64,000 nt of DNA from Sulfuriferula multivorans (GTDB lineage: Bacteria > Pseudomonadota > Gammaproteobacteria > Burkholderiales > Sulfuriferulaceae). Below the pieces are notes generated by a model that saw only the letters and a list, made by a program, of their open reading frames with translations, ran no database searches and was not told the origin of the DNA. Every line of letters begins with the position of its first letter. Within the stretch, counting starts at the first letter, position 1. The stretch spans positions 1 to 64,000 of the forward strand of contig NZ_BGOW01000003.1 in NCBI RefSeq assembly GCF_003851125.1. The letters run 5' to 3'. Made by a program: the position numbers and the translations under genes. This document shows, piece after piece, positions 16,512 through 55,653 of the stretch.

Positions 16512-17552
16512 TCAGCCCAAACTTACGCCCATCAACCTGCCGATGAAGTAGGTCGCCGCTCCTGCCGTGGCACCGATGGCCAGCATGCGCAAGCCGCCCA
16601 GTATGGCGTGGCGGCCGGTGAACAGGCTCAGCGTGGCGCCCACTGCAAACAGCGACGCCGCAGTCAGCACCACCGCCGCCAGCAGCGCCGGGTTGCCGCT
16701 GGTAACGAGAAAGGGGGCCAGCGGGATGGCCGCGCCGGCGCAAAACGAAATGAACGAGGAAATCGCCGCGCCCCATGGCGAACCCAGCTCATCCGGGTTG
16801 AGCCCGAGTTCCTCGCGCGCCAGCGTGTCCAGGGCACGAGTCGGGTCGGCGATTAAAGTATCCGCGAGTTTCCTGGCCTCGACCTCGGGAATGCCCTTGG
16901 CGGCATAAATCAGCGCCAGTTCGGCGGCTTCTTCCTGCGGGTACTGGTCGAGTTCTTCGCGCTCCAGACCGATCTGGTATTCGAACATTTCGCGCTGCGA
17001 GCGCATCGAGATGTATTCCCCCGCCGCCATCGAAAACGCGCCCGCCAGCAAGCCGGCCACGCCGGTCAGCACGAGGGTCTGGCTGCTGACCGCTGCGCCA
17101 GCTACGCCGAGAATCAGGCTGGCGTTGGACACCAGGCCATCGTTGATGCCGAACACCGCTGCGCGCAGGTTGCCGTTGCCGCCGTGTCCCTGATGGCGTG
17201 TGCCGACCTCGGCCAGCGAGGTCGGCATGCCGTGGGTGGCAGTGGGCTTGAAATACAGCGACATGCCGCGCACTTTCATCGCTGCCAGAACATGGCGCAT
17301 GGCGCGCGTACCGAGCCGGGGTAACAGCCAGGCAACCAATCGTGTGCGCATATCGGGATGAAAAGCGGTGGGAGGAATGCCGCCTTCCTTGCGGATTTCC
17401 GTAGCCCACAGGTTTGCCTGCCCTTCTGCCGCCTCAGCCAGCTCGCTGAATAAAGCCTGTCGCGGTGTGCCGGATTCGGCTGCAGCTACGGCACGGTACA
17501 GATATACGGAACGTTTTTCTTCCAGCCAGCCTTCAAATGCGTGTGATGTCAT
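16512..17552 (-). CDS. Erythrin-VIT1/CCC1 family iron/manganese transporter
   Basis: The 346-aa product fuses an N-terminal ferritin-like (erythrin) domain, residues ~1-95 (EGWLEEKRSVYLYRAVAAAE and ELAEAAEGQANLW), to a VIT1/CCC1 membrane domain with five hydrophobic segments (GNLRAAVFGINDGLVSNASL, SMAAGEYISMRSQ, and three C-terminal helices). Relatives move Fe2+ or Mn2+ out of the cytosol, with the ferritin-like domain sensing or loading metal. The ATG at 17552 overlaps the patatin gene stop by ATGA, so it is translationally coupled as the last gene of the long minus-strand operon. Why a metal exporter belongs there is unknown. Confidence 0.88.
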   Translation of the reverse strand: MTSHAFEGWLEEKRSVYLYRAVAAAESGTPRQALFSELAEAAEGQANLWATEIRKEGGIPPTAFHPDMRTRLVAWLLPRLGTRAMRHVLAAMKVRGMSLYFKPTATHGMPTSLAEVGTRHQGHGGNGNLRAAVFGINDGLVSNASLILGVAGAAVSSQTLVLTGVAGLLAGAFSMAAGEYISMRSQREMFEYQIGLEREELDQYPQEEAAELALIYAAKGIPEVEARKLADTLIADPTRALDTLAREELGLNPDELGSPWGAAISSFISFCAGAAIPLAPFLVTSGNPALLAAVVLTAASLFAVGATLSLFTGRHAILGGLRMLAIGATAGAATYFIGRLMGVSLG

Positions 17553-20281
17553 GTAGTGATCTTGGCCTGTTTGCGAAAGTCTGCGTCTGCGTGGGCGCGC
17601 AGGATACGGAATAATCCCGCCCACTCATGGTTGGGCAGATCCTGTCCGGCATTGTAATGGTTGCCGAGCAGTTCGCGATAGGCGTCGTCAAACACGTGCG
17701 CCGCAAGGTGGTGGCCGAGCTTGCGGTAGCTCTCGAACTGCGCTTCGTCAAAGTCCTGGTCACTGGTGCGCTGGTGCGGAAAGCCGGGGTTGCTGACCGC
17801 GTAGTTGAACACGTCAGAGGGAATATCGCATGCCAGCGTGGGCTTGAGGTACAGCAGCTGGGCGTCCGGCGCATCGGGATAATGAATGCGGCCGACCGCC
17901 GCCGACCACAGGCTCAAACCCGTGGCGGAGTCCGGGCGCAGCGCGTTGACGTCGATGTCGATGCGCACGCCGAAATCGGTGTAGCACTTGCGAATGGCGT
18001 TGCCGAGATCGTCGAAGTTGAATTTTTCGTCCTGTCCGGCGTCGATGGCGACGATGTAGTTGCAGCGCCGCCGCACCAGTTCGTAAATGCCGAGGTTCTC
18101 GAAATGACCGCCGTCGGACAGATAGACGAACGGCGTATCGCTGTCGGTGAGACCGAACAGTTCGCTCAGCAGGTAGCGCCCGCCCAGTTTCGGGCCATAG
18201 GCGCGCCAGGCGCTGGGGTGGCACGGATTGCCGCTCCAGTGGCCGAGGCGCAGGTTGAACACCGTCATCAGCAAACACAGCGCGGGCGAGCTGTGATAGC
18301 CCATGTTGGGGCTGGCCGCCGCGCCGGAAATCGCCATCGCCGTGCCGAGAAAAGCCCCGTGCGGGCCGAGGTATCCGGCGCTCGGGCGGTAGCCGCCGCG
18401 GCACTTTGCGGTGTTGCTGGCAGTGGTCGCCAGGCTGAAGCCGCAATGGCTGGGGGTGAAGCTGAACGCCGCTGCCTTGCGCTGTTGCCAGGCCAGATCG
18501 CTGCCTTTGACCAGATTGATGGCGGTATTGAAAATCGGATACGGGCGCTGCACCAGATCGGCCAGTGCCAGGTCGTCAGCCGGGTCGAAGCCGGTAAACA
18601 GCTGCGGCGCACGCTCAGGCTGGCGCGAGGCGCCCAGATAGCAGCGCACCAGCCGGTCGCGGTAAAAGTAATACAGTGCAAACAGATTGATATCGACGCG
18701 CCAAGACAGCAGCGCAGCGGCGGCCACACACGCCAGCGCCACCCCCAGCAGCAGCCAGCCGGACACCTGGTTCATGGCGGCAAGGCAATGGTAGGCATAG
18801 TCCTGGACGCTGCTGCCAGGCGCCAGTGCGCGTCCATCCACGTCGCTCAGCGCATATTGCAGCAGCGCGCTGAGCAGGATCAGCAGGCCGCTGATGAACA
18901 CCCACGGCGCGCTTTTCGCCAGCCATTCCTTCCACCACACACTGCCGGGTTTGGCAGTGGCCGGCCCCGAGCCCAGCAGCAGCCCGGTCACGGTGGACGC
19001 CAGCCAGGCGGCGCCGCCGCCATATGCCCAGTGGCTGGCCCACAGCAACAACGGCAGCGCGTAAATGGCGACCACAAACAAAGCCAGCCAGGCCAGCCCG
19101 ATGATCAGTATCCAGCCGCCGAGCCGGCTCCACCATTCGCGCATGGCGTTGGAAAAATCGCGCCCCATGAAGCCGATGTGCGCCACCACCACCAGCGAAA
19201 AAATCTTCAAAATCAGCGGCGTGCCCAGCCCTACCGCCCACCACACGGCCGTCTCGGCGGGCAGATAGCGCAAGCCGTGCACCGCTGCATAAAACAGCAG
19301 TCCGCCCAGTGCGCCCGCCGCCAGCGTGCTGAGCAGCGTCACCAGACTGCTGCGCAGCGGCCGCAGCAGCAGCTCGCGCCGTTCTGCCTGGCCGAATACC
19401 AGACTCAGCAAGCGGCCGTACAGCCACGGCAGCGCGTACAGCAGTGCGGCGGTTTTCATCCATTCCAGCGGCGGCGCGGTGAGCTTTGCGCCGAGCAGAA
19501 AAAAGCCGTAACTGAACAAGGCTGCGGCCAACAGCGTCGGCAACACGATCAGCCTCAGCACCCAGCCTTGCTGACAGTACCAGCGCGGCGTCCCGGTACT
19601 CACCAGATTGAATGAGGTCATCACCACCGCCACCAGCAGACTCAGCCCACCCAGCCCGAAGTAGATCGGGTGCAGCGCATTGAGGGAATGAAACCCGCTC
19701 CACTCCAGCAGCGTACCCAGCCCCGGCAGCTGCAGACCGGCCAGCTGCGGCAGTGCCGCAATCAGCAGCCTGGGCAGCAATAGCAGCGCCGCCACGCTCA
19801 GGATCAGCACGCTCAGATTGAGATACAGATTGCGCAGATAGGTCGCCACCGCGCCCAGCGTATCGGCCGACAGCAGGCCGCTGTGCGGCGTCAGATAATT
19901 GCTGTAGCTGCGCAGAAAGCGCACCGCCGTCAGCTCGTCGCCGCCGCACGCCAGCAGCGGTTCGAGTGCCGCCACGCTGCCGTTGCCCTTGCGCCGGATC
20001 AGCGCCGCCAGCCAGCCGCCGATATAGCCGCCGCCCGACACCGTGGACAGGTAATCGAAGCCGCGCAGCAGCTTGCGTTCAGCCAACGCCTGGATCACGC
20101 CGAGGTTGAAGGTGGCGCTGCGGATGCCGCCGCCGGAGAAGGCCAGGCCGACACGCGGCGCGTTGGCGGGCGTGCCGTCCTGCACGCGCAACGCATCCAG
20201 TACCGCGCGCTCGTGTTGCAGCATCGCCGCCAGCGTGAGGGGGGCATCCGGGTCGGCTGGGTCGGGCTGGGGGGCGGGCAT
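17549..20281 (-). CDS. Membrane-spanning patatin-like phospholipase
   Basis: The 910-aa product starts with a patatin domain: LAFSGGGIRSATFNLGVIQAL (oxyanion hole) and YLSTVSGGGYIGGW with nucleophile Ser82. The catalytic Asp motif SDGGHFENLGIYELVRRR lies far downstream, near residue 735. The two halves of the catalytic dyad are separated by a large insertion (residues ~145-530) with about ten hydrophobic segments, an arrangement seen in some large bacterial patatin-like proteins. It probably cleaves acyl chains from membrane lipids. It is coupled to the VIT gene and follows the amidase gene by 39 bp. Confidence 0.85.
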   Translation of the reverse strand: MPAPQPDPADPDAPLTLAAMLQHERAVLDALRVQDGTPANAPRVGLAFSGGGIRSATFNLGVIQALAERKLLRGFDYLSTVSGGGYIGGWLAALIRRKGNGSVAALEPLLACGGDELTAVRFLRSYSNYLTPHSGLLSADTLGAVATYLRNLYLNLSVLILSVAALLLLPRLLIAALPQLAGLQLPGLGTLLEWSGFHSLNALHPIYFGLGGLSLLVAVVMTSFNLVSTGTPRWYCQQGWVLRLIVLPTLLAAALFSYGFFLLGAKLTAPPLEWMKTAALLYALPWLYGRLLSLVFGQAERRELLLRPLRSSLVTLLSTLAAGALGGLLFYAAVHGLRYLPAETAVWWAVGLGTPLILKIFSLVVVAHIGFMGRDFSNAMREWWSRLGGWILIIGLAWLALFVVAIYALPLLLWASHWAYGGGAAWLASTVTGLLLGSGPATAKPGSVWWKEWLAKSAPWVFISGLLILLSALLQYALSDVDGRALAPGSSVQDYAYHCLAAMNQVSGWLLLGVALACVAAAALLSWRVDINLFALYYFYRDRLVRCYLGASRQPERAPQLFTGFDPADDLALADLVQRPYPIFNTAINLVKGSDLAWQQRKAAAFSFTPSHCGFSLATTASNTAKCRGGYRPSAGYLGPHGAFLGTAMAISGAAASPNMGYHSSPALCLLMTVFNLRLGHWSGNPCHPSAWRAYGPKLGGRYLLSELFGLTDSDTPFVYLSDGGHFENLGIYELVRRRCNYIVAIDAGQDEKFNFDDLGNAIRKCYTDFGVRIDIDVNALRPDSATGLSLWSAAVGRIHYPDAPDAQLLYLKPTLACDIPSDVFNYAVSNPGFPHQRTSDQDFDEAQFESYRKLGHHLAAHVFDDAYRELLGNHYNAGQDLPNHEWAGLFRILRAHADADFRKQAKITT

Positions 20282-20320
20282 GAGCGGTGGCCTTTTTGAT
20301 GTACAGGTTAAAAAACGACG

Positions 20321-21154
20321 TCAGGTCGCTGCGCGCAGAAAACGGCTGTTGACCCAGCCTTCCACGTCCATATCGCCCGCTACTGTGTCGAGCACCGCCA
20401 CGCGCCACCAGTTGCCCTGTTTCTGCAGCGCTTCGACGCGCGTGCCGAGCGGCAGCGGGCTGACCGGCAAGGCGGCGAAACCTGCGCCTGCGCCGACGCG
20501 GATATGCAGTGCAGTGGTGGTCGTCAGCACCTCTTCGGTATCCTGGGCGCGACCAAACAGGCGCGCGCGAAAGCTCGTCATCGGAAAGTCCGGACCGGGA
20601 TCGACTTTTCGGCCCGGTGCGATGTCCTCGTGGCCCAGCACATCGCGCAGCGCGTACTTGCCCACCAGCAGCGTCGCCACTTCCAGCGCGGCGGCAATCT
20701 GCACCTCGGTATAGGTATGCCAGCCGCACGGCGGCGTGCCCGGCGCATCGTTTTTGTGATTCGCCACCAGCACCTCGTCATCCGGGTAACTCGCCTTGAA
20801 CCACGCCTGCCAGCGGCTGCCGACCCGGTCGAGCCGCCCGGCGTTGTCGAGCTCGATGCCGAGCGCGTAGCGGTTCATGCCTTCCAGCCCCTGCCAGCGC
20901 GACACCCCGGCGTGCCAGGCGACGCGGTTGAACGGCACCAGCTGGGTTACGCCGCCGTCGCGGCCGATCACCACATGCGCCGACGCCTTGCTGGCTTTGT
21001 TGCACAGCGAGGCGATGCTGCTGGCGGCGTCGCGCCCGGCGGTAAAGTGCATCACCAGATATTGCGCCGCCAGCACCCCGCCGACGCTGGGGCTGGGCTG
21101 GTAGCGACACGCGGTACCGTCGTCGTTTAGCAGGCGGTGGTTGATGATTTTCAT
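20321..21154 (-). CDS. N-acetylmuramoyl-L-alanine amidase (Amidase_2) with C-terminal SH3-like domain
   Basis: The 277-aa product has an Amidase_2 domain (residues ~25-195): AQYLVMHFTAGRDAASSI with the first zinc His, VAWHAGVSRW, YALGIELDNAG, and GHEDIAPGRKVDPGPDF with the second zinc His and Asp ligand. Residues ~205-277 form a bacterial SH3-like repeat (LHIRVGAGAGFAALPVSPLP, WWRVAVLD, EGWVNSRFL). It should cleave the MurNAc-L-Ala bond of peptidoglycan. No signal peptide is seen, so a host target would require another export route; an anti-bacterial or cell-exit role is possible. It sits in the protease/lipase part of the operon. Confidence 0.88.
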   Translation of the reverse strand: MKIINHRLLNDDGTACRYQPSPSVGGVLAAQYLVMHFTAGRDAASSIASLCNKASKASAHVVIGRDGGVTQLVPFNRVAWHAGVSRWQGLEGMNRYALGIELDNAGRLDRVGSRWQAWFKASYPDDEVLVANHKNDAPGTPPCGWHTYTEVQIAAALEVATLLVGKYALRDVLGHEDIAPGRKVDPGPDFPMTSFRARLFGRAQDTEEVLTTTTALHIRVGAGAGFAALPVSPLPLGTRVEALQKQGNWWRVAVLDTVAGDMDVEGWVNSRFLRAAT

Positions 21155-21196: not shown

Positions 21197-21979
21197 TCAA
21201 GCTTTTGGGTACATGCGCCGGATGAAGCGCTTGTCGCCGGTGGACAGCTTGGTGTTACTGGCGGTGCCGACGCCGCTTTGCAGCAGTTCGGGCGGAAAGC
21301 TGTAGAGCATGATGGACTTGGGATCGAACTTGCTGGCGTTGAGTTGATCGAGCGAATATTTCTGCACGATGTTGTGGTCGATGTCCGCCTTGCTCCAGTT
21401 ATTCGGCGGCCCGCTGAAATAATCGTACACCGCCTGCAGGTTCCACTTGATGCCGCCTTTGGGGTTCTGGTGTTCGTGGATGGCACCCAGCGCGTGGCCG
21501 AATTCATGCACCACCACGCGCCGCCATTCCTCGTCGTCGGTGCTGTCGCGCAGCCAGCCGAAATTCATCGTGGGTTCGCTTTTTTTGAAATACGTGGTGT
21601 GCAGACTATCGGTGCCGACCGCCGACCAGGAACCGTCGTCGGCCTCGAACGATACGCGAATCTCGGCGCTGCTCTGGCGGGCGTTGAAATTGAAGCGGAT
21701 GTTGGCGTAAGCCTCCCACAGCGTGGCGAACTGACGCACCTTGGCCTTTTGCGTGGCACTGCCGTCCATGAAATACACGCCGAGTTCGCGCCCGTTCTGC
21801 CACTTCTTGCCGGCCAGCAGCGCCATCTTGGCCGGGTGCATGGAAGCCCCAGCCAGCGCGCGCGGCATCCGGGGCTGGTTGCCGGGATTTTCGGTGATTG
21901 CCAGACTGGCGGCGACGATTTTGTGCTCAATCGGAATGATGCGGTCGATGCACATGTGCAGCTTAAGTTTCTTGTTCAT
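21197..21979 (-). CDS. Metzincin-type zinc metalloprotease (astacin/matrixin-like)
   Basis: The 260-aa product has the extended zinc signature VVVHEFGHALGAIHEHQNP (HExxHxxGxxHE type) and a downstream Met-turn KSIMLYSFPPELL, both diagnostic of metzincin peptidases. The N-terminal ~90 residues contain GRELGVYFMDGSATQKAKV and a strand pattern expected of the upper subdomain. There is no clear signal peptide (start MNKKLKLHMCIDRIIPIEHK), which is unusual because relatives are normally secreted. It lies between the amidase and the Hcp-like gene, with gaps of 42 and 21 bp, in the same transcript. Confidence 0.87.
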   Translation of the reverse strand: MNKKLKLHMCIDRIIPIEHKIVAASLAITENPGNQPRMPRALAGASMHPAKMALLAGKKWQNGRELGVYFMDGSATQKAKVRQFATLWEAYANIRFNFNARQSSAEIRVSFEADDGSWSAVGTDSLHTTYFKKSEPTMNFGWLRDSTDDEEWRRVVVHEFGHALGAIHEHQNPKGGIKWNLQAVYDYFSGPPNNWSKADIDHNIVQKYSLDQLNASKFDPKSIMLYSFPPELLQSGVGTASNTKLSTGDKRFIRRMYPKA

Positions 21980-22000: not shown

Positions 22001-22483
22001 TCAAATGGCCTGGTTTTTGGTGACGTCCCAGCCTGCCGTGATCGCGGCACCCAAGCTGCCATCCGCCTGTTGCGGCCGGTATTCCAGCGTGATGTTGTTG
22101 AAATGCAGGCTCACCTGATCGGTGGGTGGCAACCCGCTGCCTTGCTCGGCGGCGGTCTGGTAGGCGCTCACGGCCACATCGCCCAGCGTCCACTGCAAGA
22201 AATCCAGTGGCGTTTTGCCGGCTCGCCGCACGGTCAGAATGGCGCGCTTGATGCGTTTGCCCGTGGCCACTGCCAGCAGCAGCCTGGGCGAGGCGGTGCA
22301 ACTGTGCAGGCTGCAGTACAGATCCTGCACCTGCACTTTGCCGGCACCGCCGCCGCCCCCACTGTGGATGAGCTGCTGCGATTCGCTCCAGTTGCACGAC
22401 AGCAACTCGATTTCATTGCGGTGGCGGTCGTCGGTGGATTCGCCGTCGATGCCGTCTAGCTTCAAAAACAGTTCGATTTTCAT
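22001..22483 (-). CDS. Hcp-like (type VI tube/effector family) protein
   Basis: The 160-aa product starts MKIELFLKLDGIDGESTDD and has KVQVQDLYCSLHSCTASP, KRIKRAILTVRRAG, and VSLHFNNITLEYRPQQ, the beta-strand pattern of the Hcp fold. Typical Hcp proteins form hexameric tubes in type VI secretion, and stand-alone relatives can be secreted effector-type proteins. No other T6SS gene (TssB, TssC, ClpV, VgrG, TssJLM) is present in the window, so this is an orphan. The start at 22483 is preceded by a GGAG site; a longer open frame exists but lacks support. It is located between a FecR lipoprotein and a metalloprotease gene. Confidence 0.7.
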   Translation of the reverse strand: MKIELFLKLDGIDGESTDDRHRNEIELLSCNWSESQQLIHSGGGGGAGKVQVQDLYCSLHSCTASPRLLLAVATGKRIKRAILTVRRAGKTPLDFLQWTLGDVAVSAYQTAAEQGSGLPPTDQVSLHFNNITLEYRPQQADGSLGAAITAGWDVTKNQAI

Positions 22484-22517: not shown

Positions 22518-23330
22518 TTACCGCATGTAGTTGGGTTGCTTTGTGGGTGGTGCAGCCGGCTTGGGACGCGAATGCATTGGCAGGCCGAAGCCGAAATCGA
22601 ATTGGGGTGGGTCACGCGGCCTGCATTGCGTTTCCAGCAGCGCGCGGTCGAAGGAAAACTGCCCGGTACCGCATTGTTCGCGGTCGCTGGGGGTGACCTG
22701 CTGCGCCTTGCAGCACCAGCCAGAAAAGGTGTAATTGTTGCGCCAGCGTACCGTTTCCAGAAGCTCGGCTGGATCCAGCTGGCGCATGCGCGCGACCCCG
22801 CGCAAGTTCATCACGTATTGCTGGCCGGCCAGGATGCGTGCCGCTTGCGGGCGCACTACGTTGACGTTGCCCTGCAGTACTGTGATACCGGTCTGCTGCG
22901 CGGTGGCGCGGATATTGATGCGGCTGTTGTTGATGGCGTCGAGCGCCGGGCTGTCGATGCAGAACTGCTGTTTGTCGACGAACACCTGACCGCGCAATAT
23001 TCTGGACAGAATGCAGAAACCCGATTGCAGGCGCTTGACGAGAAAAATCGGGTCGGTGTCCTGATCCAGCTGGAACAGGCCGCCGTCGGCAAATTCAATC
23101 AGCCCGCTGCTGGCGTTGCCGGTGGTGACAGTATCGCCGACGCGTATCGCCTCGCCGCCGAAGGCGCGGTTGCCGTTGAGGAACACCTGACTGCCGGCCA
23201 CGCCGAGCGTGCCGATGCGGTCGCCCAGAGCGGGCTCTTTGTTATATATGCCGCCTGCGCAGCCGGTCAGGGCGAGGAGCAGCCCCAGTAGCAATACGGT
23301 GAACGGTGATATTACGGACTCTGATCTCAT
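22518..23330 (-). CDS. FecR-domain lipoprotein
   Basis: The 270-aa product has a lipoprotein signal (TVLLLGLLLALTGCAGG; lipobox LTGC). A FecR-type domain (residues ~40-160) contains GSQVFLNGNRAFGGEAIRVG, SSGLIEFADGGLFQLDQ and INIRATAQQTGITVLQGNV. The C-terminal 90 residues are Cys-rich (SGWCCKAQQVTPSDREQCG) and Pro-rich. FecR domains bind signals or carbohydrate-like ligands in the periplasm; here there is no sigma factor beside it. The ATG at 23330 overlaps the upstream membrane protein stop by ATGA, indicating coupling. Confidence 0.85.
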   Translation of the reverse strand: MRSESVISPFTVLLLGLLLALTGCAGGIYNKEPALGDRIGTLGVAGSQVFLNGNRAFGGEAIRVGDTVTTGNASSGLIEFADGGLFQLDQDTDPIFLVKRLQSGFCILSRILRGQVFVDKQQFCIDSPALDAINNSRINIRATAQQTGITVLQGNVNVVRPQAARILAGQQYVMNLRGVARMRQLDPAELLETVRWRNNYTFSGWCCKAQQVTPSDREQCGTGQFSFDRALLETQCRPRDPPQFDFGFGLPMHSRPKPAAPPTKQPNYMR

Positions 23331-24256
23331 GGCGTTCTCCTCGTTGGCATGGCGGCGCGGCCTGCGAACAGCGTTTCGATCTGGCGGATCTGTGCGCTGC
23401 GCACCGCGCCGACGGGCAGCCACAACACGCGTCTGGCGTGCGCATCCCACAGCACGAAATCGCGCTCGGTCCGGTTCAGCAGGAACAGTTTTTCAGCACC
23501 GCTGCCGGGCCAGGTCGTGGTCGTATCGAGGCTGATGACCGGCAGGCGGATCTGGCGCTGCAACACGCCGTAGAGCATCGGCAGCAATACCGTGTAGAGC
23601 AGTACAATCAGCACAAACGGCGCGCTCAACAGCAGCCGCCAACGCCACGGCGCGGCCACCCGCCAGGCCAGCAGCAGCAGTACCGCAGCCTTGAGCAGCA
23701 TCAGCAAACTGTTGGCAAAAATGGCCTTGAGACGAACGCTGTCGCCATTTAGCAGCAGAGCGCTCAGACTCCCCGCCGCGGGCTGCTGTTGCACAAACAG
23801 CAGGTTGGAGATTTGCAGCGGCGCATTCAGGCTTTGCGGGTCTTCGCTGCCCACCAGCAGCAGCACCAGCAACGCGGCGAATACCAGCGCCCGTGCCGGC
23901 CCGGATTGGCGTATCTGTGCCAGACGCGCGTGCCAGCGCGCCCGCGCCGCCCCCAGACGGTGGCGCATGAAATACCCCAGCGGTGCCAGTACCAGCAGCA
24001 CCAGCAGCGCCACAAAACCGGCACTGATGAGCAGATTGAGCAGGATTTCGCCGAGCAGACCGAGTACGTCGACGAGAAAGCGCCCGCCCTCCTCGACGTA
24101 ACGCTCCTGGCCGTAATTCACCAGCCCGGACAGCCCGAGCAGGTGCAGTTGCGCGGTGCTCAGCAGGTAGCCGCAGGCATACAGAATCGCGCCGATGCCG
24201 GCCAGTGCGCCGGACAGCCAGCCAACGAACAGTGCGATGCCTTTGCTTAATTCCAT
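23327..24256 (-). CDS. Multi-pass membrane protein of unknown family
   Basis: The 309-aa product has about five hydrophobic segments: residues ~5-33, ~60-95, ~120-140, ~185-205 and ~208-235. A ~70-residue C-terminal part follows (LDTTTTWPGSGAEKLFLLNRTERDFVLWDAHARRVLWLP) that looks like a small soluble beta domain. I do not recognise the family. It shares an ATGA overlap with the FecR lipoprotein gene, so the two products may form a membrane pair. It probably contributes the inner-membrane anchor or channel of this gene set, which is inference. Confidence 0.75.
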   Translation of the reverse strand: MELSKGIALFVGWLSGALAGIGAILYACGYLLSTAQLHLLGLSGLVNYGQERYVEEGGRFLVDVLGLLGEILLNLLISAGFVALLVLLVLAPLGYFMRHRLGAARARWHARLAQIRQSGPARALVFAALLVLLLVGSEDPQSLNAPLQISNLLFVQQQPAAGSLSALLLNGDSVRLKAIFANSLLMLLKAAVLLLLAWRVAAPWRWRLLLSAPFVLIVLLYTVLLPMLYGVLQRQIRLPVISLDTTTTWPGSGAEKLFLLNRTERDFVLWDAHARRVLWLPVGAVRSAQIRQIETLFAGRAAMPTRRTP

Positions 24257-40927: not shown

Positions 40928-40940
40928 GCACGCTACCTCC

Positions 40941-41064: not shown

Positions 41065-41087
41065 CGACAGAAACGCGACCCCTGGCT

Positions 41088-48102: not shown

Positions 48103-48196
48103 TGCTGTAAGCCAGGCGCGCGGCGCCTATCAGTGTGTGCCCGCCTGAAACAAGCGCAGTGGCGGCTTGAAAACGAAAAACAGGCTGGTCATTCAT
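48083..48196 (-). CDS. Possible 37-aa peptide gene
   Basis: An ATG at 48196 overlaps the end of the di-haem protein gene by 8 bp, and the frame encodes MNDQPVFRFQAATALVSGGH... for 37 codons to a TAA that overlaps the start of the 162-aa gene by 20 bp. It bridges the two genes in the same manner as other coupled genes here. No clear ribosome binding site or family is seen; it could be a coupling leader rather than a functional peptide. Confidence 0.35.
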   Translation of the reverse strand: MNDQPVFRFQAATALVSGGHTLIGAARLAYSNANEQE

Positions 48197-49811
48197 GCGG
48201 CATCCTTTGTGGTTGGGACAGGGTGGGGGGCAGGCAGGCACGCAGTTGTCCGAACGGCCGTGCAAGCAGGGTTTCGGGTTGGCCGCCCTGGGCGCGGATG
48301 CGTAGGCGCACGTCTTCCAGCAGCGTCGCCAGGGCAGGTGAGCGTGCCCAGGTTGCTACGTCGATGCCGCGCGTGGCCAGGATGCTGGGCGGCGGCATGG
48401 GCGATTTGCTGCGCCGCGCGGCGGTGACATGCCACAGGCTCAGGCGATAAAAAATCCGCTCAGCACAGTGATCGAGACGGGCGCTGACGGCAGCGTCGTC
48501 GCCGTGCAAAAAATTCGGCGGAAAATTCGCCGTGCTGTCATGGCACAGGCCGCACTGGGTGCGAAACAGGGCGTGAGCGCCAGTGAAGCGCACGCCGGCT
48601 TCGATGCGTGCAGGCGGCAATCGGGTCAGCGACGGCTTGTGCGGCATGTCGAACTCGGCCAGCACGGCATGCAGCAGCGATGGGTTGAACGGACCTGCGG
48701 CCAGTTCGCCGCGTGCGCGCAGGCGTTCGAGCGCGGCGCTTAAATCGCGCTGTCCCAATCGTTTGACCGCCGATTGTTTAACGACGGCAGCGTCGAGCAT
48801 GCCGGCCAGCCCGACGATGAAGGCGGTTTTGTCCGGTGCGTGCCATATTTCTAGCGGCAGGCGCGGTAGCAGGGGGTCGTTCGCTGCATCCGGCAAGGCG
48901 GCCAGCGGGTCGCGGTTGGGCAGGTCGGGATTGGGAATGGGCAGCCCGTGCGGCCAACGGATTTTCCAGTTGCGCGCCAGCGTCGGCAACGCGCTGGCGG
49001 CGGGCAGGCGGCCATTGCGGGCGTAATCCAGCGCAGCGGAAAACGCTTCCATGCGGCAGCGATCGCCGGTTTCGCCTGCGCCGCAGCCCTGTTGCCACAG
49101 CGTCTGCCAGACCGAGAATAAATTGGCGCGCTCGGTCGCCGCGTCGATGAAATAGGCGATGTCGGTGCCGGAGAGCTTGATGCCGTAAAAATCCTTGCGT
49201 GCGTCACGCAGACGACGGGCGATTGCCGGATTGGCGGAGGTTTCGTCCCACAACGGGCGTGCGAAGATGGGCGCGGCGTTCTGGTGGCAGGCCAGGCACA
49301 GGCTGCGCCGCGCGTAGAAAACCTGCGGTATTTTGCCCGGTGCGTAATCGCGCACGATCTGGAATTCGAAGCGCGCAGCGTCGTCGTTGTAGCTGATGAC
49401 TTCGACCACCTCGCCCTTTTCGTGAAAGCCGAGGAACAGCCGGTCTTGCAGCGGGTCGACCCCCGCTTTGTTGAGGCCGTCGGCGGCAGCGACCACACGC
49501 GGGAAGCGGAAAAAATCCGGTGCGCCGGCGTTCTTTTGCAGCGATCGGCCGAGCGGGATCAACGTGGTCTTGAGCGCTGGCAGGCCGCCCGGGTCGGCCT
49601 GCATCTGTGACTGGATTTTCTGCGCCAGGCGGGCATAAGGAAACGGCACCGGCGCGTTGCCGATGAGCAGGTCGAATCGCGAGCGCCCAAGCGGCGGCAG
49701 GTCGGGCTGCGTGGGTACCAGCGGTTGCGCCGACGTACCCCAAGCGGGGCTCAATGTCAGGCACATGGCAATAATGAACAGATAGGGGCAGAGGCAGCGC
49801 GCATTGGGCAT
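48189..49811 (-). CDS. Exported di-haem cytochrome c-like protein
   Basis: The 540-aa product has a signal sequence (ARCLCPYLFIIAMCLTLSPA) and two c-type haem motifs: SLCLACHQN around residue 180 and TQCGLCHDS around residue 420. The region after the first has PIFARPLWDETSANPAIARR. The pattern resembles haem-binding oxidoreductases of the periplasm; the exact family is uncertain. The start at 49811 forms a TGATG junction with the amylase gene stop, so the genes are coupled. It may pass electrons with the 858-aa di-haem protein encoded at the head of the operon. Confidence 0.8.
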   Translation of the reverse strand: MPNARCLCPYLFIIAMCLTLSPAWGTSAQPLVPTQPDLPPLGRSRFDLLIGNAPVPFPYARLAQKIQSQMQADPGGLPALKTTLIPLGRSLQKNAGAPDFFRFPRVVAAADGLNKAGVDPLQDRLFLGFHEKGEVVEVISYNDDAARFEFQIVRDYAPGKIPQVFYARRSLCLACHQNAAPIFARPLWDETSANPAIARRLRDARKDFYGIKLSGTDIAYFIDAATERANLFSVWQTLWQQGCGAGETGDRCRMEAFSAALDYARNGRLPAASALPTLARNWKIRWPHGLPIPNPDLPNRDPLAALPDAANDPLLPRLPLEIWHAPDKTAFIVGLAGMLDAAVVKQSAVKRLGQRDLSAALERLRARGELAAGPFNPSLLHAVLAEFDMPHKPSLTRLPPARIEAGVRFTGAHALFRTQCGLCHDSTANFPPNFLHGDDAAVSARLDHCAERIFYRLSLWHVTAARRSKSPMPPPSILATRGIDVATWARSPALATLLEDVRLRIRAQGGQPETLLARPFGQLRACLPPTLSQPQRMPHE

Positions 49812-51655
49812 CAGGCCGTCGGCCCGTACACCGCGCAGCTGGCGGCGGGCAGCTCGAGCCACACCGCACGCCAGTCGGGGCGCGGCGCGGCGACCACCAA
49901 TTCGCTGCCGATTTGCGCCGGGTCAGACGAATACAGACAGACCAGGCGACTGCCCAGCGGGCTGATCGTGAAATCCAGCCCCACCCATGCGGCGCGCTTG
50001 CCGTCGGCGTCGGTGTTGATCGCGCACAGCCATTCGCGTTCGGTGAATAACCGCGACCACGCCACCACCGAGCGCAGCACGCCGCCGAACATCTGCGGCT
50101 CGCCGAAATCCTGGCCGTTGCCGGAAATCGCCCGCAGGTATTGGCGACCGCGCCGCAACGCCAGATGTTGCCCGTGCACCGCAATCAGCCGTGCGAGTTC
50201 GCGGTAGAGCGGCTGGGTTTCGTCAAAACAGTGGCGGTCGCGCGAGCGGAACGCGCCGAAGTCGCCGCCGAACATTGCCTCGCGGATGTAGCGGTCGTTG
50301 TCGCCCGCGCCGTCCAGTCCCTGTTCCGAACCGTAGTAGATGCACGGAATGCCGAGCGTGAGTACATTCAATGCCAGCGCATTGAGCGCGAGCGGTGTGC
50401 CACCGTCGGCGCAGAAGCGTGCCTTGTTATTACCTTTGCGTACCTGGTCGTGGTCGTCGTAAAGCGTGACAACCTTGTCGCGGAACCAGGTGTGGCTGTC
50501 CTTGCCGAGCTCGAACGAGTTGCGGAACAGGTCGAAGTAGTCCGCCGGATTGCGCCGCCCCTTGACCAGGTATTCGATCTTGTCGGGGATGTCGTCGATG
50601 CCTAGCGCAGCGTCGAGACCAGTCGCTTCGCGCAGGGCGAAGGCGTTGCTGCGGCCACCGGTGATTTCGCCGATCAGGGTGAAGTTTTCCTTGCCGATCG
50701 ATTGCGCGAATTCGTGAATGCAGGCGGTGAAATAGCGTGTTGCGCCGGGCTCCATGTGCTTGACTGTATCGACCCGGAAGCCATCGAGGTCGGCGTAGGC
50801 GATCCAGTATTGATAGGCGCGGGTGAGGGTGCGCAGCGCCAGCGACGGCCGGAAACTGTCGATCTCGCCCGCGCCGAGATGGATGTCTTTCAGATCGAAG
50901 AAATCGCCGTCCAGATATTCCGGGTACCAGTCCCAGCTATTGATGCGGCCGAGTCGGGTGAAACTCTCGGGCGCTTGCAGTTCGCGTGGCCAGACGGCGG
51001 CGTCCGGGTCGGCGACCGGCGCACCATATGCCAGCGTGGGCATACCGCTGGCGTCGTTCCAGCCCCGGACGCTATAGGCGTTGCCGTCCCAGCGCGGGTC
51101 CATGCCGTGCTCGGTCGGATAGCGGTCTGGGGCATAGGAAAACACCGGCCCGGCGTGGTTGAGGATGACATCCAGAATGACGTAGATGCCATGCGCGTGC
51201 GCCGTATCAACCAGTTCGCGCAGGTCTTCGCGGCTGCCGAAACGAGGTTCGATGGCCAGAAAATCCTGCACGCCGTAGCCGTGGTAGGCGTCGCTCCACG
51301 GCGGCTGCTTGAACACCGGGCTCACCCATAGCGCGGACACGCCGAGCCGCTTCAGATAACCGATTTTGCTTGCCGCTCCTTTCAGGGTGCCGCCGACAAA
51401 GCGCGCGCCGGCATTGCGCCAGGCTGCTGCGGCAGGCTCGGTGCCAACCGCATTGCCGTGCTCGGCGGGGCTAAGCAGGGGGGTGACGCCGCCCGCCACC
51501 GGATTACCCGCGAGGTCGTGATAGCCCGCCTCTTTGCCGTCGGAAAACCGGTCGACCAGAAAAAAGTAGAACACCTGGTCTTCCCACGCGCTGGGCGAAG
51601 GGTGGAAGCTGTTTTGCGTCAGCGCGGCGAAGTCGATGTCGGCAAGCGTTTGCAT
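49811..51655 (-). CDS. GH13-family alpha-amylase
   Basis: The 614-aa product has the GH13 (beta/alpha)8 barrel: FYFFLVDRFSDGKEAGYHDL, region I VILDVILNHAG, region II DGFRVDTVKHME with the nucleophile Asp, region III TLIGEITGG with the acid/base Glu, and region IV LYDDHDQVRKG with the third Asp. It should hydrolyse or rearrange alpha-1,4-glucans such as glycogen or starch. No signal peptide is visible. An open frame runs 66 codons upstream, but the ATG at 51655 with GAGGACA upstream gives the normal start and a 10-bp gap from the lipoprotein gene. Confidence 0.92.
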   Translation of the reverse strand: MQTLADIDFAALTQNSFHPSPSAWEDQVFYFFLVDRFSDGKEAGYHDLAGNPVAGGVTPLLSPAEHGNAVGTEPAAAAWRNAGARFVGGTLKGAASKIGYLKRLGVSALWVSPVFKQPPWSDAYHGYGVQDFLAIEPRFGSREDLRELVDTAHAHGIYVILDVILNHAGPVFSYAPDRYPTEHGMDPRWDGNAYSVRGWNDASGMPTLAYGAPVADPDAAVWPRELQAPESFTRLGRINSWDWYPEYLDGDFFDLKDIHLGAGEIDSFRPSLALRTLTRAYQYWIAYADLDGFRVDTVKHMEPGATRYFTACIHEFAQSIGKENFTLIGEITGGRSNAFALREATGLDAALGIDDIPDKIEYLVKGRRNPADYFDLFRNSFELGKDSHTWFRDKVVTLYDDHDQVRKGNNKARFCADGGTPLALNALALNVLTLGIPCIYYGSEQGLDGAGDNDRYIREAMFGGDFGAFRSRDRHCFDETQPLYRELARLIAVHGQHLALRRGRQYLRAISGNGQDFGEPQMFGGVLRSVVAWSRLFTEREWLCAINTDADGKRAAWVGLDFTISPLGSRLVCLYSSDPAQIGSELVVAAPRPDWRAVWLELPAASCAVYGPTA

Positions 51656-51665
51656 GGCGGTGTCC

Positions 51666-52538
51666 TCAGCGGGTCGCAACGATGCGTTTCTGCGTGCCGC
51701 CCCAGCACGTGTCTCTGACCTGGCCGGCCTCGAATTCGGCGCGCCCGGCGCGGTCCAGATCCTTGTTGTAGAGCACGAAGTTGAGAATGAAGGCGTGATC
51801 CATGTAGGCGCGCCCGAGATACAGGCCGGGCCGCACCATGCGGATTTCATCACGCACCTTGAGGCCGCGCCGCCCGGCCAGGAAATCCGGTCGTTCGCGG
51901 TAGCCGGGGATGTCGTCGGTGAAGGCGTAGTCGATGATGATGGATTCGCGGCGCGAGTCGATCAGGCTTTGCCCGCAGTAGAGCTTGGCGGGGAACAGCA
52001 GCCAGGCATCCTTGCCGTCAACGGCGATTTTCGGGATGTCGCCGGGGCCGATGACGGGGCGCAGCACGGCGAGGTCTTCGATACGGTTGCGCAGCACTTT
52101 TTCGTCGCGGTAGAACACCTTGCCTTTCCACAATGTTTCGCCCGCGGTTTCCAGCAGCTTACCCTTGACGTTCAGCCCCAGGCCGGCGAGCCCGCCGACG
52201 ATTTCGGCGGCGCGCAGCTTGCCCGTGCCGCCGCGCGTGAATACGATTTCGCCGTCGAACGGACCATTCGGAATTGGCCCCGAGCCCAGACGCGCGTAAA
52301 GCTGGTCGAGTTGTTCCTGATTCAGCCCGGCCAGATATTTTGGGGTGACCTTGATGAGTTCTTTCAATGGAATCGGGTGTTCGTACTCGACCTGCGCCAG
52401 ATCAGGCTTGCTCGCATAATCCTTGCCATAAGGCGCGTAGACGATGTCGGGCTTGCCTGCGAACCAGCTTTTGATCTGGTCGCACCCCCCCAGCGTGGCG
52501 CTCAACACCAGTGCGAAAAAAACAGCGCGGACAGGCAT
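51666..52538 (-). CDS. Unrecognised lipoprotein (290 aa)
   Basis: The product has a lipoprotein signal sequence (MPVRAVFFALVLSATLGGCD; lipobox LGGC), placing the lipid-modified Cys at residue 19. The mature region (HPIPLKELIKVTPKYLAGLN, GLGLNVKGKLLETAGETLWK, GLYLGRAYMDHAFILNFVLY) is not matched to any family I know, though the last segment resembles conserved C-terminal parts of bacterial lipoproteins that accompany cytochromes. It is 10 bp downstream of the 858-aa cytochrome gene and 10 bp upstream of the amylase gene. Confidence 0.75.
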   Translation of the reverse strand: MPVRAVFFALVLSATLGGCDQIKSWFAGKPDIVYAPYGKDYASKPDLAQVEYEHPIPLKELIKVTPKYLAGLNQEQLDQLYARLGSGPIPNGPFDGEIVFTRGGTGKLRAAEIVGGLAGLGLNVKGKLLETAGETLWKGKVFYRDEKVLRNRIEDLAVLRPVIGPGDIPKIAVDGKDAWLLFPAKLYCGQSLIDSRRESIIIDYAFTDDIPGYRERPDFLAGRRGLKVRDEIRMVRPGLYLGRAYMDHAFILNFVLYNKDLDRAGRAEFEAGQVRDTCWGGTQKRIVATR

Positions 52539-52548
52539 GGTTTCCTCC

Positions 52549-55125
52549 TCAAAACGTCGCGAGAAAGGCTATCAGGGCGTTCTTGTCGGCCTCTGACAGG
52601 TCTTCGCCAAAACGGTGGCCGTCGTTTTCGATTTCGACGTTGCACGACGAATATACTTGCCACAGCGCGGGCGTACGGGCGCGCGCTGCCTTCACCAGTT
52701 CGACCAGCCGATTCGGGTCGGAGACGATGGCTTTGCCGATGTTGCGCATTTCGGATGCGACCTGTTTCGCATCATGCGCGGGCAATATTTTGGCCAGGCG
52801 CGCGTCGAGTTCGGCGGGCTCAAGTTTTGCGCGCACCAGATCGCCGATGAATTCCTTGTGGCGGAAATTGCCAACATTGCCTGCGCTGGCGCCCGCCGGT
52901 ACGCGTACGGTGAAGCCGGTTACGCGCTTTTCTTCCTTACCGTCGAAGATGCGCGGGCCGATGTCGAGCACGATGTCCTGGTCGAGCTTGAGCGCCTTGG
53001 GGATGCGTTTGGAGGGGCTGAGCAGGTCGTTCATCGACGCGACATAGAGCTTGAAGCGACCTTCGACCGAGGTGTCGTATTGCCAGCACGCGGGCTGTTT
53101 GTCCCTGGCCAGCGGCGGGTTGCCGGGCCTGGACGTATCGACGTAACTGGAACGGTACTGCTCGTAGGGATTGGCCTTGTCGCCGCCCCAACCGCAGAGT
53201 TCCGGTCCGACCGAATTGTTGTGCAGGAACGGCGCGTGCGCCCACAGGTTCAGCAGCGAAATGTTGCGGTAATAGCCGCGTCCGCCGTCGTGCGGTTCGA
53301 GAATGCCGGAGACGGTCTTGCGGGCGAAGTAATTTTCGTCGGCGAACTGTTCCCAGACATGGCCGCGCAGGTGATTGGAATGCAGCGCGCGGCAGCGGTC
53401 AGTACCGATTTCGGTGACCGGCGTCGGCACGTCGTTGCCGAGCCAGTCGGCGCGCAGGCCTGTTTTGCTGTCGAGGGCGCGAAAATTTACCGCCTCGAAC
53501 GGCGGCTTGCCGCTGGAATGACAGCGCGCGCAGTTGGTGGCGAATACCTGCTGGCCGCGCGACACCGCGTTTTTGCCGAAACGGTGGTCGAGGTCGCGCT
53601 CCAGATCAGCCTCGGCGTAAGGTGTCTGGCGCTGGTTTGCGCGCGCTTCGCGCAAGTCCCTGGCATGGCCTTCAGGCGCGGTCAGGAAGAAATCGAGGAT
53701 ATTCTGTAGCCGGTCTTCGACCGCGCGGAAGTTGGGGCAGTCGCGCCGGCACTGGCCGATGTCGAACGGCGTCTGACCGAAATTGCGCGCCTGCGGATCG
53801 AGCTGGCGCAGGTCGGTAAGGTGATTGACCCAGCACTGCTCGGAACACGAACCGATGTTGAAATACACGCGCTGGATCGCACCCAGCGCGCCGATCGAGT
53901 CTTCACCGCCTTTGAGGATGTGGTGTACGGTTTCGGCTTGCAGGCTGTTTTCCCAGCATTTGCCAGGCTTGCCGGGTTCGCACCAGCAGCTGGATGCTTT
54001 TGTGCCCGTTGGGCACGCAGCCGTCTTGCGCCAGCGCTTGACCTGTTCGCCCGCAAAGGTGGGACGCTGCGCGATATTGATGAGCGCATTGATGGTGCCG
54101 GCGTTGTTGACCTGATCGTTGGGGATCGCCGAAGTATCGGAGGTGCCGGGACGCGCGTGGGCAAAAGTCTGCCACAGCAGATCGTCGTGCGGCATGCCCG
54201 AAATGAGCAATTCGGAGATGCGGATGTATTGGTTGCCGACCAGCCCGGAGATATTTTCCCATTTCGGGTGTGCCGGGTTGAGCGGGGGTTTGGCCGGGTC
54301 GAAGGCGACATGGCAGGAAGCGCAGGAGGTGCCGATCAGGAACGGCGGTTCGATTGAAGCATCGGCGAGTTTGCGCAGCTTGAAGTCGGCGCGGGCGGGG
54401 TCGCTGGACAGCTTGCGGTCGTAGCCCTGCCAGGTACCGAGGCTGCCGTTGAGTTTTTTCCAGGCGACCGGATCGAAGCGCGGGTTGGGAAATTTGCGGA
54501 AGCCGAGCGCGCCGGTGGAGGTGCCGAAGGCGAGGTTGCAGCTGTCCTCGCGACCGTCGCGGTGGCCTGCGGGGTCGCTGGACGTGGCCGCGGCATCCTT
54601 GAAGTCGCACGCCGGGTCACGGTAGCCGGCTTTGCCGACGAACTTCAGCAGAGTCTGGTCGCCGGGACACCAGTCGAAGCCGTAGGTTTCCTCATAACTT
54701 TTGGCCGGGCAGCCAGCCGAACCCGGCGTACAGCAGCCCGGATCATTGATCAGTCCCCAGGTTTTGAAGCGGGTGTCGCGCTGGTCGCCGCGCAGCACGC
54801 CGTACCAGTCGATCAGCGCGGTGATGCGCTGCTGGAAGGTGTAGGTATGGAAACGCGCATTGCCTGCGGTCGCCTTGAACCAGATTTCGCGCCCGGCGCG
54901 GGCGGACGGCGACAGCCTGGTTCCGGCGGCGTGGAAAGCGGCGTCGTTGTATGACGCAGCAACCTCCGGCAGGGCAGTGGCTTCAGGCGGGACGGCGGCG
55001 CTTGGAGTGGGCTGGTTCGGCAGCGTGGCGCGTGCCTCGTGGGCAGGTTGAGAAAACCAGAGTGCCACCGCGAACCCTGCAATGACACAGACGGCAATCC
55101 AGCGGACTGGTTTGGATGAATTCAT
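52549..55125 (-). CDS. Large di-haem cytochrome c-type protein (RoxA-like layout)
   Basis: The 858-aa product has an N-terminal signal anchor (WIAVCVIAGFAVALWF) and two CxxCH haem motifs, C268-C271-H272 (GTSCASCHVAFDPAKPP) and C532-C535-H536 (ATNCARCHSSGKPP), about 260 residues apart. This spacing and the DPAHP-like surroundings recall the di-haem oxygenases RoxA/RoxB and related peroxidases; extra Cys pairs (CSEQCW, CRRDCP) suggest disulfides. It should be periplasmic or outer-surface. A GAGGGAC site precedes the ATG. It is the first intact gene of the proximal operon, downstream of the remnant and promoter block B. The substrate is unknown. Confidence 0.82.
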   Translation of the reverse strand: MNSSKPVRWIAVCVIAGFAVALWFSQPAHEARATLPNQPTPSAAVPPEATALPEVAASYNDAAFHAAGTRLSPSARAGREIWFKATAGNARFHTYTFQQRITALIDWYGVLRGDQRDTRFKTWGLINDPGCCTPGSAGCPAKSYEETYGFDWCPGDQTLLKFVGKAGYRDPACDFKDAAATSSDPAGHRDGREDSCNLAFGTSTGALGFRKFPNPRFDPVAWKKLNGSLGTWQGYDRKLSSDPARADFKLRKLADASIEPPFLIGTSCASCHVAFDPAKPPLNPAHPKWENISGLVGNQYIRISELLISGMPHDDLLWQTFAHARPGTSDTSAIPNDQVNNAGTINALINIAQRPTFAGEQVKRWRKTAACPTGTKASSCWCEPGKPGKCWENSLQAETVHHILKGGEDSIGALGAIQRVYFNIGSCSEQCWVNHLTDLRQLDPQARNFGQTPFDIGQCRRDCPNFRAVEDRLQNILDFFLTAPEGHARDLREARANQRQTPYAEADLERDLDHRFGKNAVSRGQQVFATNCARCHSSGKPPFEAVNFRALDSKTGLRADWLGNDVPTPVTEIGTDRCRALHSNHLRGHVWEQFADENYFARKTVSGILEPHDGGRGYYRNISLLNLWAHAPFLHNNSVGPELCGWGGDKANPYEQYRSSYVDTSRPGNPPLARDKQPACWQYDTSVEGRFKLYVASMNDLLSPSKRIPKALKLDQDIVLDIGPRIFDGKEEKRVTGFTVRVPAGASAGNVGNFRHKEFIGDLVRAKLEPAELDARLAKILPAHDAKQVASEMRNIGKAIVSDPNRLVELVKAARARTPALWQVYSSCNVEIENDGHRFGEDLSEADKNALIAFLATF

Positions 55126-55262
55126 CTAGCTGTCCCTCAAAGCAAAAAAGCAGCAAAGCAGGAGCGCGTTCGATTGTTTGCATCTTTCGCCCGGTAGCAA
55201 GCTGGTTTCACGGCGGTTTCGGCTTGAATGAATTGCCAGGCCGGTTGCCGGTGCCTGCCCGC

Positions 55263-55513
55263 TTAGCCGGCCATCCTGTTCAACATGTGGTCGATGACCT
55301 TGCTGTGCTCGTCCTGCGGGCTGAACAGGATGACCTCGGCATCTTTGCCGACTTTAACCGTGTGTCCGGGTGGCCTGGGCGTGGATCTAATGCGCAAAGC
55401 ATGTCGAACGCCTGGCGCAGCGCAATTGCCGCCTTGCACGGCAACCGCCATCTGACCGGCGGCATCGCGCAGCCCGCTAACCCTTTTCCGGAAAACCAAT
55501 CTGGCCGTGTCAT
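55263..55513 (-). pseudogene. Frameshifted remnant of the 5' end of the 1083-aa gene
   Basis: The ATG at 55513 and its ribosome binding site align with the start of the 1083-aa gene at 40927 (ATGACACGGCCAGATT-GGTTTTCC against ATGGCACAGCCAGATGCGG), but one base is missing after codon 5. In the shifted frame, residues such as VFRKRVSGLRDAAGQM match VFQKCYSWFRDSVSQAV of the intact protein for about 20 positions. After that the sequence is unrelated (VKVGKDAEVILFSPQ...VIDHMLNRMAG) to a TAA. It could alternatively be a small 92-aa gene from a GTG at 55541. A recombined leftover of a duplication is favoured. Confidence 0.6.
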
Positions 55514-55526
55514 GCGCCCTACTCCC

Positions 55527-55653
55527 CTCGCTGGCTGTCACCGGGCCCGGTACTGTGGATGCCCGTGCAGCATTTATGGTATGTCAGGGTTTTATAGGTG
55601 ATGCTGCCGAGTACGGCTATGCGTCATTTGCCATAGGCCATTTGGCCTATGGC
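55527..55653 (-). promoter_or_regulatory. Conserved promoter/operator block B driving the cytochrome/peroxidase operon
   Basis: This block has a perfect palindrome at 55630-55653 (GCCATAGGCC, spacer ATTT, GGCCTATGGC on the plus strand) and a TATAAA box at 55596-55591 on the minus strand. It continues into the same leader segments (GCTGCACGGGCATC, GGTGACAGCCAGCGAGG) found ahead of the 1083-aa gene at 41 kb. The two blocks share order, sequence and spacing across ~125 bp. The likely transcript runs through the remnant into the 858-aa gene. A dedicated regulator is not seen nearby. Confidence 0.68.

Follow-up and report, generated by a model that had tools for sequence, protein, structure and literature searches.

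An apparently undescribed four-gene core of giant proteins in Sulfuriferula multivorans and its relatives across bacteria and archaea

The question raised by the first 64,000 nucleotides of contig NZ_BGOW01000003.1 of Sulfuriferula multivorans (hereafter the window, from a genome of 3.62 Mb in 87 contigs with a completeness score of 100%) is which unit, if any, is formed by an about 39-kb run of genes encoding giant proteins, proteases, a lipase, an amidase, and haem proteins. An earlier interpretation made from the letters of the window (the sequence-only reading) had proposed the entire run as a candidate undescribed system. The part of that proposal that holds is a core of four giant-protein genes, referred to below as DUF6603, 1162, 1649, and 634, which is real, widespread, and apparently undescribed; the 39-kb set as one conserved unit is not supported. 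The main genes, from 55125 down to 16512, lie on the minus strand throughout in an unbroken run and are mostly overlapping or tightly spaced, and their coordinates bear out the single-strand arrangement with overlaps and short gaps that had been described. The gene sizes given there were likewise correct, the four giants being real open frames of 1083, 1162, 1649, and 634 aa.

The first core gene (37676..40927) encodes the 1083-aa DUF6603 protein and overlaps by 4 nt the second (34191..37679; 1162 aa), whose start we took at 37679, the longest frame opening at 37763. The third (29231..34180; 1649 aa) follows after a gap of 10 nt and the fourth (27317..29221; 634 aa) after one of 9 nt, and a further 21 nt separate 634 from the gene for a caspase fusion. 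Downstream of the caspase gene, the genes overlap or are spaced by 33, 27, 21, 42, and 39 nt. Wider breaks occur before DUF6603 (160 nt), before the gene for a 414-aa protein (157 nt), and before the gene for a tetratricopeptide repeat (TPR) protein (at least 397 nt). No terminator-like site was detected at 40800-41200, and the window gave no match against 4227 families of structured RNA.

The DUF6603-like character of the 1083-aa protein, recognized in the sequence-only reading, was confirmed by a match to PF20248 (E 1.6e-117; 393.6 bits against a curated cut-off of 27), which makes it a clear member of a family without assigned function, whose constant partners here match no Pfam family. The 1162, 1649, and 634 proteins had no matches in Pfam, NCBIfam, PHROGs, or PADLOC. 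Searches of PDB sequences with profiles of the four core families recovered no credible relative: three families gave nothing at E <= 1, and 1649 gave two matches at E 0.24 and 0.3. A possible homology between 634 and 1162 was rejected, the profile comparison giving a probability of 0.1. Literature searches on DUF6603/PF20248, on wider sets of terms, and on Nitrospira found nothing within a scope that leaves out most subscription journals and preprints.

To what extent the four genes belong together can be judged from their distribution. A profile scan of the contigs of GTDB species genomes yielded 455 pattern stretches; 634 relatives are encoded in 444 of these, and the best 80 loci were kept for analysis. 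In these, the order DUF6603, 1162, 1649, 634 on one strand, as traced with tblastn and profiles, is constant wherever the DNA reaches, and the median gaps between successive core genes are 12, 13.5, and 3 nt (46, 62, and 77 loci, respectively). Among 86 loci (L004-L089), all four core genes are present in 54, a further 30 stop short of the missing gene because the contig or flank ends (as judged by hand from positions), and 2 are exceptions that are taken up below. The flag 'not ordered' on seven loci is artificial, being caused by open frames that begin at the edge of the locus or, in L031, by a fusion. Several Nitrospira cores have one additional gene between 1162 and 1649, and 17 of the 80 kept loci are Nitrospira or Nitrospiraceae by title. 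PF20248 was found in all 29 genomes behind 30 chosen loci. Among 72,556 plasmid records, 634 was recovered in 14, with DUF6603 and 1162 in the same 13 and the 14th having 634 without those two; these plasmids, which include ones from Streptomyces, Rhizobium, Gemmatirosa, and four haloarchaea, extend the range to Gemmatimonadota and haloarchaea, such that the core spans at least nine bacterial phyla and haloarchaea. Within the genus of the window, 634 is present in 2 of 18 genomes, the window's own included.

Such a patchy spread across phyla is matched by the phylogeny. In a phylogenetic tree built from 55 members of the 634 family, strongly supported branches require at least five label changes for Pseudomonadota and four for Actinomycetota; isolates of Rubellimicrobium and Planotetraspora, which belong to different phyla, are sisters with a support of 100, and Microbacterium pairs as sister with a Rhodobacteraceae bin at a support of 99 (the tree was made with a quick method, and bins can include foreign contigs). 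The pairwise identities of the four core families are correlated (r 0.84-0.91 over 27-40 loci, and 0.73-0.87 for pairs below 60% identity), the correlation reaching at most 0.22 in 500 label permutations, which indicates that the core travels as a unit. These results show that DUF6603, 1162, 1649, and 634 are inherited as a single unit, which has spread across distant lineages. On a plasmid of Streptomyces (S. europaeiscabiei), the core lies between integrase genes. In L031, 1649 and 634 are joined in a single reading frame of 2168 aa, and in Rhizobium and Halobellus the giants are broken into several genes; such fusions and splits are as expected for the parts of one complex.

DUF6603 also occurs outside this arrangement. 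A second gene set (L090, 7970-17302; L091, 5607-15602; L092, about 6843-17015; all on the minus strand) places DUF6603 within proteins 3.1-3.4 thousand aa long, after which come a protein of 500-720 aa and a third large protein. It resembles the core in the DUF6603 domain and, in two of the three loci, in a distant 1162 relative (the 500-720-aa protein), but it differs in lacking a 1649 or 634 relative at E 10 and in the much greater length of the proteins that include DUF6603. Two Nitrospira genomes (G300 C51 and G301 C1) have two DUF6603 matches about 6 kb apart, i.e., tandem DUF6603 genes.

Do the enzymes of the window belong to this unit? Relatives of the window's 17 accessory proteins were recovered in only 3 of the 80 loci (tblastn E <= 1e-4), with at least 2 kb of downstream DNA covered in 63 loci and at least 5 kb in 53, the upstream DNA being mostly the core itself. 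One of the three (L010, the same contig as L122 and counted once with it) is from the same genus; the other two have the amylase alone, as a 51% relative situated some 2 kb past the Arthrobacter core (L053) and as a weak partial match (L069). Among 20 longer upstream contexts, for which ORFs were called by a simple procedure that overlooked some genes, a single context had an accessory match, to the TPR protein. The same-genus relative keeps 634, the caspase fusion, the papain-like protease, and the membrane-protein gene together at 89-100% identity. The giants are therefore widespread without the enzyme genes, an outcome that the sequence-only reading itself had named as refuting its single system, and we take the window's enzymes, from these homology searches, to be lineage-specific local additions outside the common core.

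One pair of accessories has an existence of its own. The 442-aa protein and the DyP-type peroxidase of the upstream operon are linked or fused on Rhizobiales plasmids with no core match nearby; in L123, L124, and L131, it is the C-terminal part of the 442-aa protein that forms the linked or fused unit with DyP, once within a protein annotated as a cytochrome P450. The surrounding cluster on a plasmid of Rhizobium ruizarguesonis (L131:670-25737) encodes, as annotated, an amidase, GH25, an S8 peptidase, 442/DyP, a matrixin, a metallophosphoesterase, and a patatin, and has no core match. Beyond 442/DyP, it shares with the window just a weak patatin match, though the enzyme mix is similar, and it is possibly an independent hydrolase arsenal.

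A link between the two halves of the run comes from their upstream DNA. The promoter block of the core operon (40908..41075, minus strand) and a second copy ahead of the upstream operon (55499..55649, minus strand) can be aligned over 151 nt at 79% identity (E 5.7e-29), and there are exactly two copies in the 3.62-Mb genome, which bears out the earlier claim of a promoter block common to both halves. Both blocks contain a 16-nt palindrome, TAGGCCAAATGGYCTA (TAGGCCAAATGGTCTA at 41048-41063 in the core block; 55634-55649 in the copy), and with up to one mismatch these are its only two sites genome-wide. At two mismatches, 8 hits were listed versus 14 for a reversed control, from which we take looser matches to be noise. 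The alignment of the blocks extends across the start codon of DUF6603 and into the codons that follow it, and the upstream copy, which holds a remnant of the DUF6603 start, is accordingly a duplicate of the DUF6603 promoter and first codons. A scan for the sigma-70 consensus found a promoter in neither block. As the block was copied before both operons and occurs nowhere else in the genome, the two operons are probably under common regulation via a private promoter. In 17 other genomes of the genus the block is absent, save for one 22-nt match in one genome. Neither the block nor the haem gene was found in G005, a relative with a 90% identical 634, and their absence may reflect the incompleteness of that genome (80% complete). 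The approximately 370 nt that separate the haem gene from the copied promoter (55126-55498) have short open frames only and are perhaps debris of the duplication.

What the core proteins might do can be approached through predicted structure. The model of DUF6603 (pLDDT 70.5, pTM 0.54) has N-terminal helices followed by about 27 long predicted strands (approximately 270-820). In these 27 strands, the hydrophobic face has a mean of 2.38 versus -0.84 for the other face, a gap that is inflated by picking the higher face for each strand, and several strands are not amphipathic; the beta-amphipathicity of the protein (z 6.4) is the highest among 21 proteins tested. A Foldseek comparison with PDB gave ten matches at E<=0.001 (1e-4 to 1e-3), with ApoB100 at the top and S-layer proteins, outer-membrane proteins, LptD, and pilus ushers among the others; their TM-scores are low, and we read them as showing a strand pattern and not kinship. 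Against a viral structure library, searched with the DUF6603 model only, five matches at E <= 0.001 were obtained, the top one being a putative tail fibre, with a TM-score of at most 0.13. The 634 model (pLDDT 80.1) has no match to PDB folds at E<=0.001. Its most conserved scored ten residues (51-60; 4.0 bits) and residues 301-310 are among the least confident parts of the model, and these conserved segments, unstructured in the single-chain model, suggest parts that may fold only on partner binding; on average, blocks of low and high confidence are little apart in conservation (2.41 versus 2.20 bits). Hydropathy, used here in place of a dedicated signal-peptide program, indicated no export signal or membrane stretch in any of the four core proteins.

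The genes and domains that accompany cores elsewhere differ among loci. A PhoD-like phosphatase gene (approximately 860 aa) lies directly upstream of DUF6603 in 8 of the 20 contexts fetched, out of 33 DUF6603 places, and also precedes the core in G282, in S. longwoodensis (inside a 1514-aa protein), and in Salinigranum. The profile used was built from 7 members, of which 5 are from within the 20 contexts; L108, L115, and L120 are the independent finds among them, and L127 is one outside these contexts. This frequent fifth gene is related to the PhoD-like phosphatases of PF09423, but two of the three members scanned are near or below the Pfam cut-off. It is absent from six beta-proteobacterial contexts (L102-L107), and PF09423 is unmatched in the window's genome. 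Other neighbours include a PLD-domain gene ahead of DUF6603 in Nitrospira defluvii and, flanking the core of a Mycobacterium, an M23 peptidase gene on the upstream side and a sub-threshold SLT match downstream; in Nitrospira LK70, 634 is followed by an H-lectin gene whose match to a tail fibre is weak. About 2.3 kb past another Nitrospira core is a protein whose start looks TIR-like by eye (L072:14036-16945), and WD40 repeats are among the families of the scanned downstream gene set.

Variable domains are also found within the giants. A domain scan of 22 rows of core relatives, mostly picked for length (21 valid, L009:6862-8121 being in the wrong frame and without a match to any core profile), recovered from Pfam FG-GAP in four, laminin-G-like lectin in two, and Kelch, lamin tail, and decapeptide repeats in one each, as well as baseplate-plug gp18 in one at E 0.004. 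The 1162 relatives of L032, L053, L058, and L067 all have an insert of approximately 700 aa, which in each splits the core homology into two halves at one common position. When seven core relatives were rescanned, a phage-type PHROG match was seen in one only, the 634 relative of Polyangium (L058:9998-13072), in which phage-structural-type families fall in a C-terminal extension (734-1014) outside the 634 homology (1-556).

We compared the core with known systems to which single features point. The run has one Hcp gene (PF05638 E 3.2e-30) in common with type VI secretion systems (T6SS), but the window's genome lacks the VipB/TssC sheath (no match to PF05943, with a positive E. coli control). 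The resemblance to phage tails consists of the H-lectin gene, with its weak tail-fibre match, beside one core and of phage-structural-type families in some core relatives, whereas the window's own four core proteins match no PHROGs family and the phage-type matches, where located, fall outside the core homology. With no sheath gene and no PHROGs family in the core proteins, membership in T6SS or other contractile-injection systems was rejected. A known anti-phage defence system was also rejected, PADLOC finding no model in the four core proteins. The long strand runs of DUF6603 recall ApoB100, LptD, and usher barrels; the core differs from these in the low TM-scores, the lack of sequence relation and of a signal peptide, and its Gram-positive and haloarchaeal carriers. 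An outer-membrane barrel was rejected as a family assignment, there being no export signal by hydropathy and relatives in Gram-positives and haloarchaea. A phage origin was rejected as well: a phage collection yielded a single hit, on an unannotated faecal contig marked 'UNVERIFIED', and none of the 18 pattern hits from a scan of viral_contigs was a relative.

Tentatively, we favour the reading, doubtful as it still is, that the core builds a large envelope-directed assembly with a role in microbial conflict, a function that we infer. The four core proteins would be made in the cytoplasm and form one large obligate complex, with 1162, 1649, and 634 building its body and the strands of DUF6603, greasy on one face, holding lipid or lying on a membrane. 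Recognition would fall to the variable domains that are inserted in or added to the giants or encoded just downstream. The companions would be enzymes, differing among lineages, that act on phospholipids, phosphodiesters, peptidoglycan, or protein, the PhoD-like phosphatase being the commonest core companion enzyme seen. Since secretion signals cannot be recognised in any of the core proteins, we propose that the assembly would be released by lysis. In S. multivorans, the duplicated private promoter would place the upstream, oxidative operon under the control of the core. In its most specific form, which we consider quite unlikely, this would be a new self-contained four-gene machine (often with a PhoD-like fifth gene), common to bacteria and archaea and with a core not recognisably derived from phage tails, in which a giant lipid- or membrane-binding assembly with exchangeable recognition domains delivers or releases lineage-specific envelope-degrading enzymes.

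Several observations weigh against the four-gene rule or against the envelope-directed assembly. The two exceptions to the constant gene set are an S. anthocyanicus plasmid with 634 and a 1649-profile match only and Nitrospira UBC2 (L046), which has no DUF6603 beside the core and a partial one elsewhere in the genome. A scan of 274 genomes of the class found 2 genomes that match the 634 profile and 6 with DUF6603, the extra four comprising three with a different gene set and one contig end with 1162 and the start of 1649. The fold matches of DUF6603 have TM-scores of 0.04-0.20 in the ten best and, further down the list, of at most 0.30 when taken by target length, and amphipathic strands are found in any beta-sandwich. 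Against a non-phage core, 13 PHROG families, some of them virion structural, tail, or tail fibre, were each matched in one or two of the 22 core-relative rows. The inserts of the four long 1162 relatives are without any PHROG phage family. From 122 downstream genes, 44 were selected by eye and gave 110 families, with no Pfam family in more than two members; no enzyme family is common to all loci, and the core of S. europaeiscabiei has no annotated lytic enzyme beside it. Lastly, the 858-aa haem protein and the TPR protein of the window look exported by hydropathy, a poor fit with one cytoplasmic particle.

Three other explanations draw on the same evidence. The giants might sense infection or damage, with exchangeable effectors (caspase, patatin, PhoD, PLD, amidase) killing the cell; such a defence or programmed-death system, which we think unlikely, would fit a patchy, mobile core that combines a conserved part with exchangeable enzymes and lies on a plasmid between integrases, as well as the match of the caspase to a PADLOC model (E 3e-20). 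Less in keeping with it are the results of PADLOC over ten proteins, with no match in the core and generic caspase and TPR models in two accessories, the three core proteins without any known domain, and the many simultaneous enzymes and haem proteins, which are unusual for defence systems. Alternatively, DUF6603 might wrap lipid in the manner of an apolipoprotein as part of an intracellular scaffold for lipid or hydrophobic cargo, which the haem, DyP, and patatin enzymes would oxidise or cleave. The modelled amphipathic strands with ApoB100 as top PDB match, the patatin, PhoD, and PLD neighbours, and the oxidative operon behind the same promoter block in this genome are consistent with this; we nevertheless hold it to be quite unlikely, given that no other core (80 loci, 20 upstream contexts) was found to be accompanied by the oxidative operon, that the TM-scores are very low, and that a storage scaffold has no evident use for lectin-type and propeller domains.

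It could also be that the locus is a genomic island of unrelated cassettes, in which only the four-gene core is a unit and has a role that needs no enzymes. The enzymes are not conserved with the core, the 442/DyP pair is independent elsewhere, and the G+C content is 67-68% at 28-38 kb, the stretch of the giants, versus 54-58% in the flanks of the window (1-6 kb and 58-64 kb). This reading too we consider improbable: the promoter block, placed before both operons and nowhere else, argues for shared control, and the same-genus relative retains a group of core and accessory genes at high identity. Whichever explanation applies, a core of approximately 13.6 kb and 4,500 aa that keeps one order across phyla while moving horizontally, and three of whose four proteins are without function, fold, or family, is a large blank in microbiology. 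Several carriers are culturable, for example Rhizobacter sp. Root404, Nitrosospira sp. NpAV, and Neobacillus rhizophilus, so the role of the core is directly testable.

The remaining genes of the run, all on the minus strand, fill out the local additions. For the caspase, papain-like, metzincin, amidase, patatin, amylase, TPR, and Hcp assignments of the sequence-only reading, family matches were found. Immediately after 634 is a 602-aa fusion of a hydrolase-like N-terminus, recognized by eye, with a caspase domain (25487..27295; PF00656 E 5.6e-29), of which a 95% identical copy adjoins 634 in the same-genus relative. It is followed by a 389-aa papain-like protease of the C70/AvrRpt2 fold family without a hydrophobic N-terminus (24284..25453; E 8.4e-9), a 309-aa membrane protein with five hydrophobic stretches (23327..24256), and a putative lipoprotein that is FecR-like (22518..23330; PF04773 below cut-off) and has a hydrophobic N-terminus. 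The 160-aa orphan Hcp (22001..22483) is the sole Hcp in the genome and falls below the NCBIfam TssD cut-off. Next come a metzincin with the motif HEFGHALGAIHEH, seen by eye (21197..21979; astacin E 7.5e-6), and an endolysin-like amidase (20321..21154; Amidase_2 E 6.2e-28), both without a hydrophobic N-terminus. A patatin-like phospholipase with about eight membrane-like stretches (17549..20281; E 2.4e-6) precedes the last gene of the run, which encodes a VIT1-family protein (16512..17552; VIT1 E 3.2e-69).

The upstream operon, in order of transcription, begins with an 858-aa c-type haem protein (52549..55125; cytochrome c match E 1.4e-6), a 290-aa putative lipoprotein, recognized by eye (51666..52538), a protein of the alpha-amylase family (49811..51655; E 1.8e-38), and a protein with two CXXCH motifs read by eye (48189..49811). 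The TPR protein follows (45308..47617), with 126-nt repeat units; nine such units, 61-80% identical to a reference copy, lie at 45288-46595. For the 414-aa protein (43906..45150), the label catalase-like was not confirmed, there being no Pfam match at 0.1 and no NCBIfam match at 0.01. PDB sequence profile searches with two accessory proteins gave no relative. The last two genes encode the 442-aa DyP partner (42581..43909) and the DyP-type peroxidase (41088..42599), for which the earlier designation agrees with a superfamily match (TIGR01413 E 1.4e-22), although its score of 80 bits lies under the cut-off of 100.5 bits. Outside the run, on the plus strand at 4635-6445, a gene for an MbnB/TglH/ChrH-type RiPP-modifying enzyme is followed by one for a DUF2063/NGO1945 protein, which we take to be a typical peptide-modification pair.

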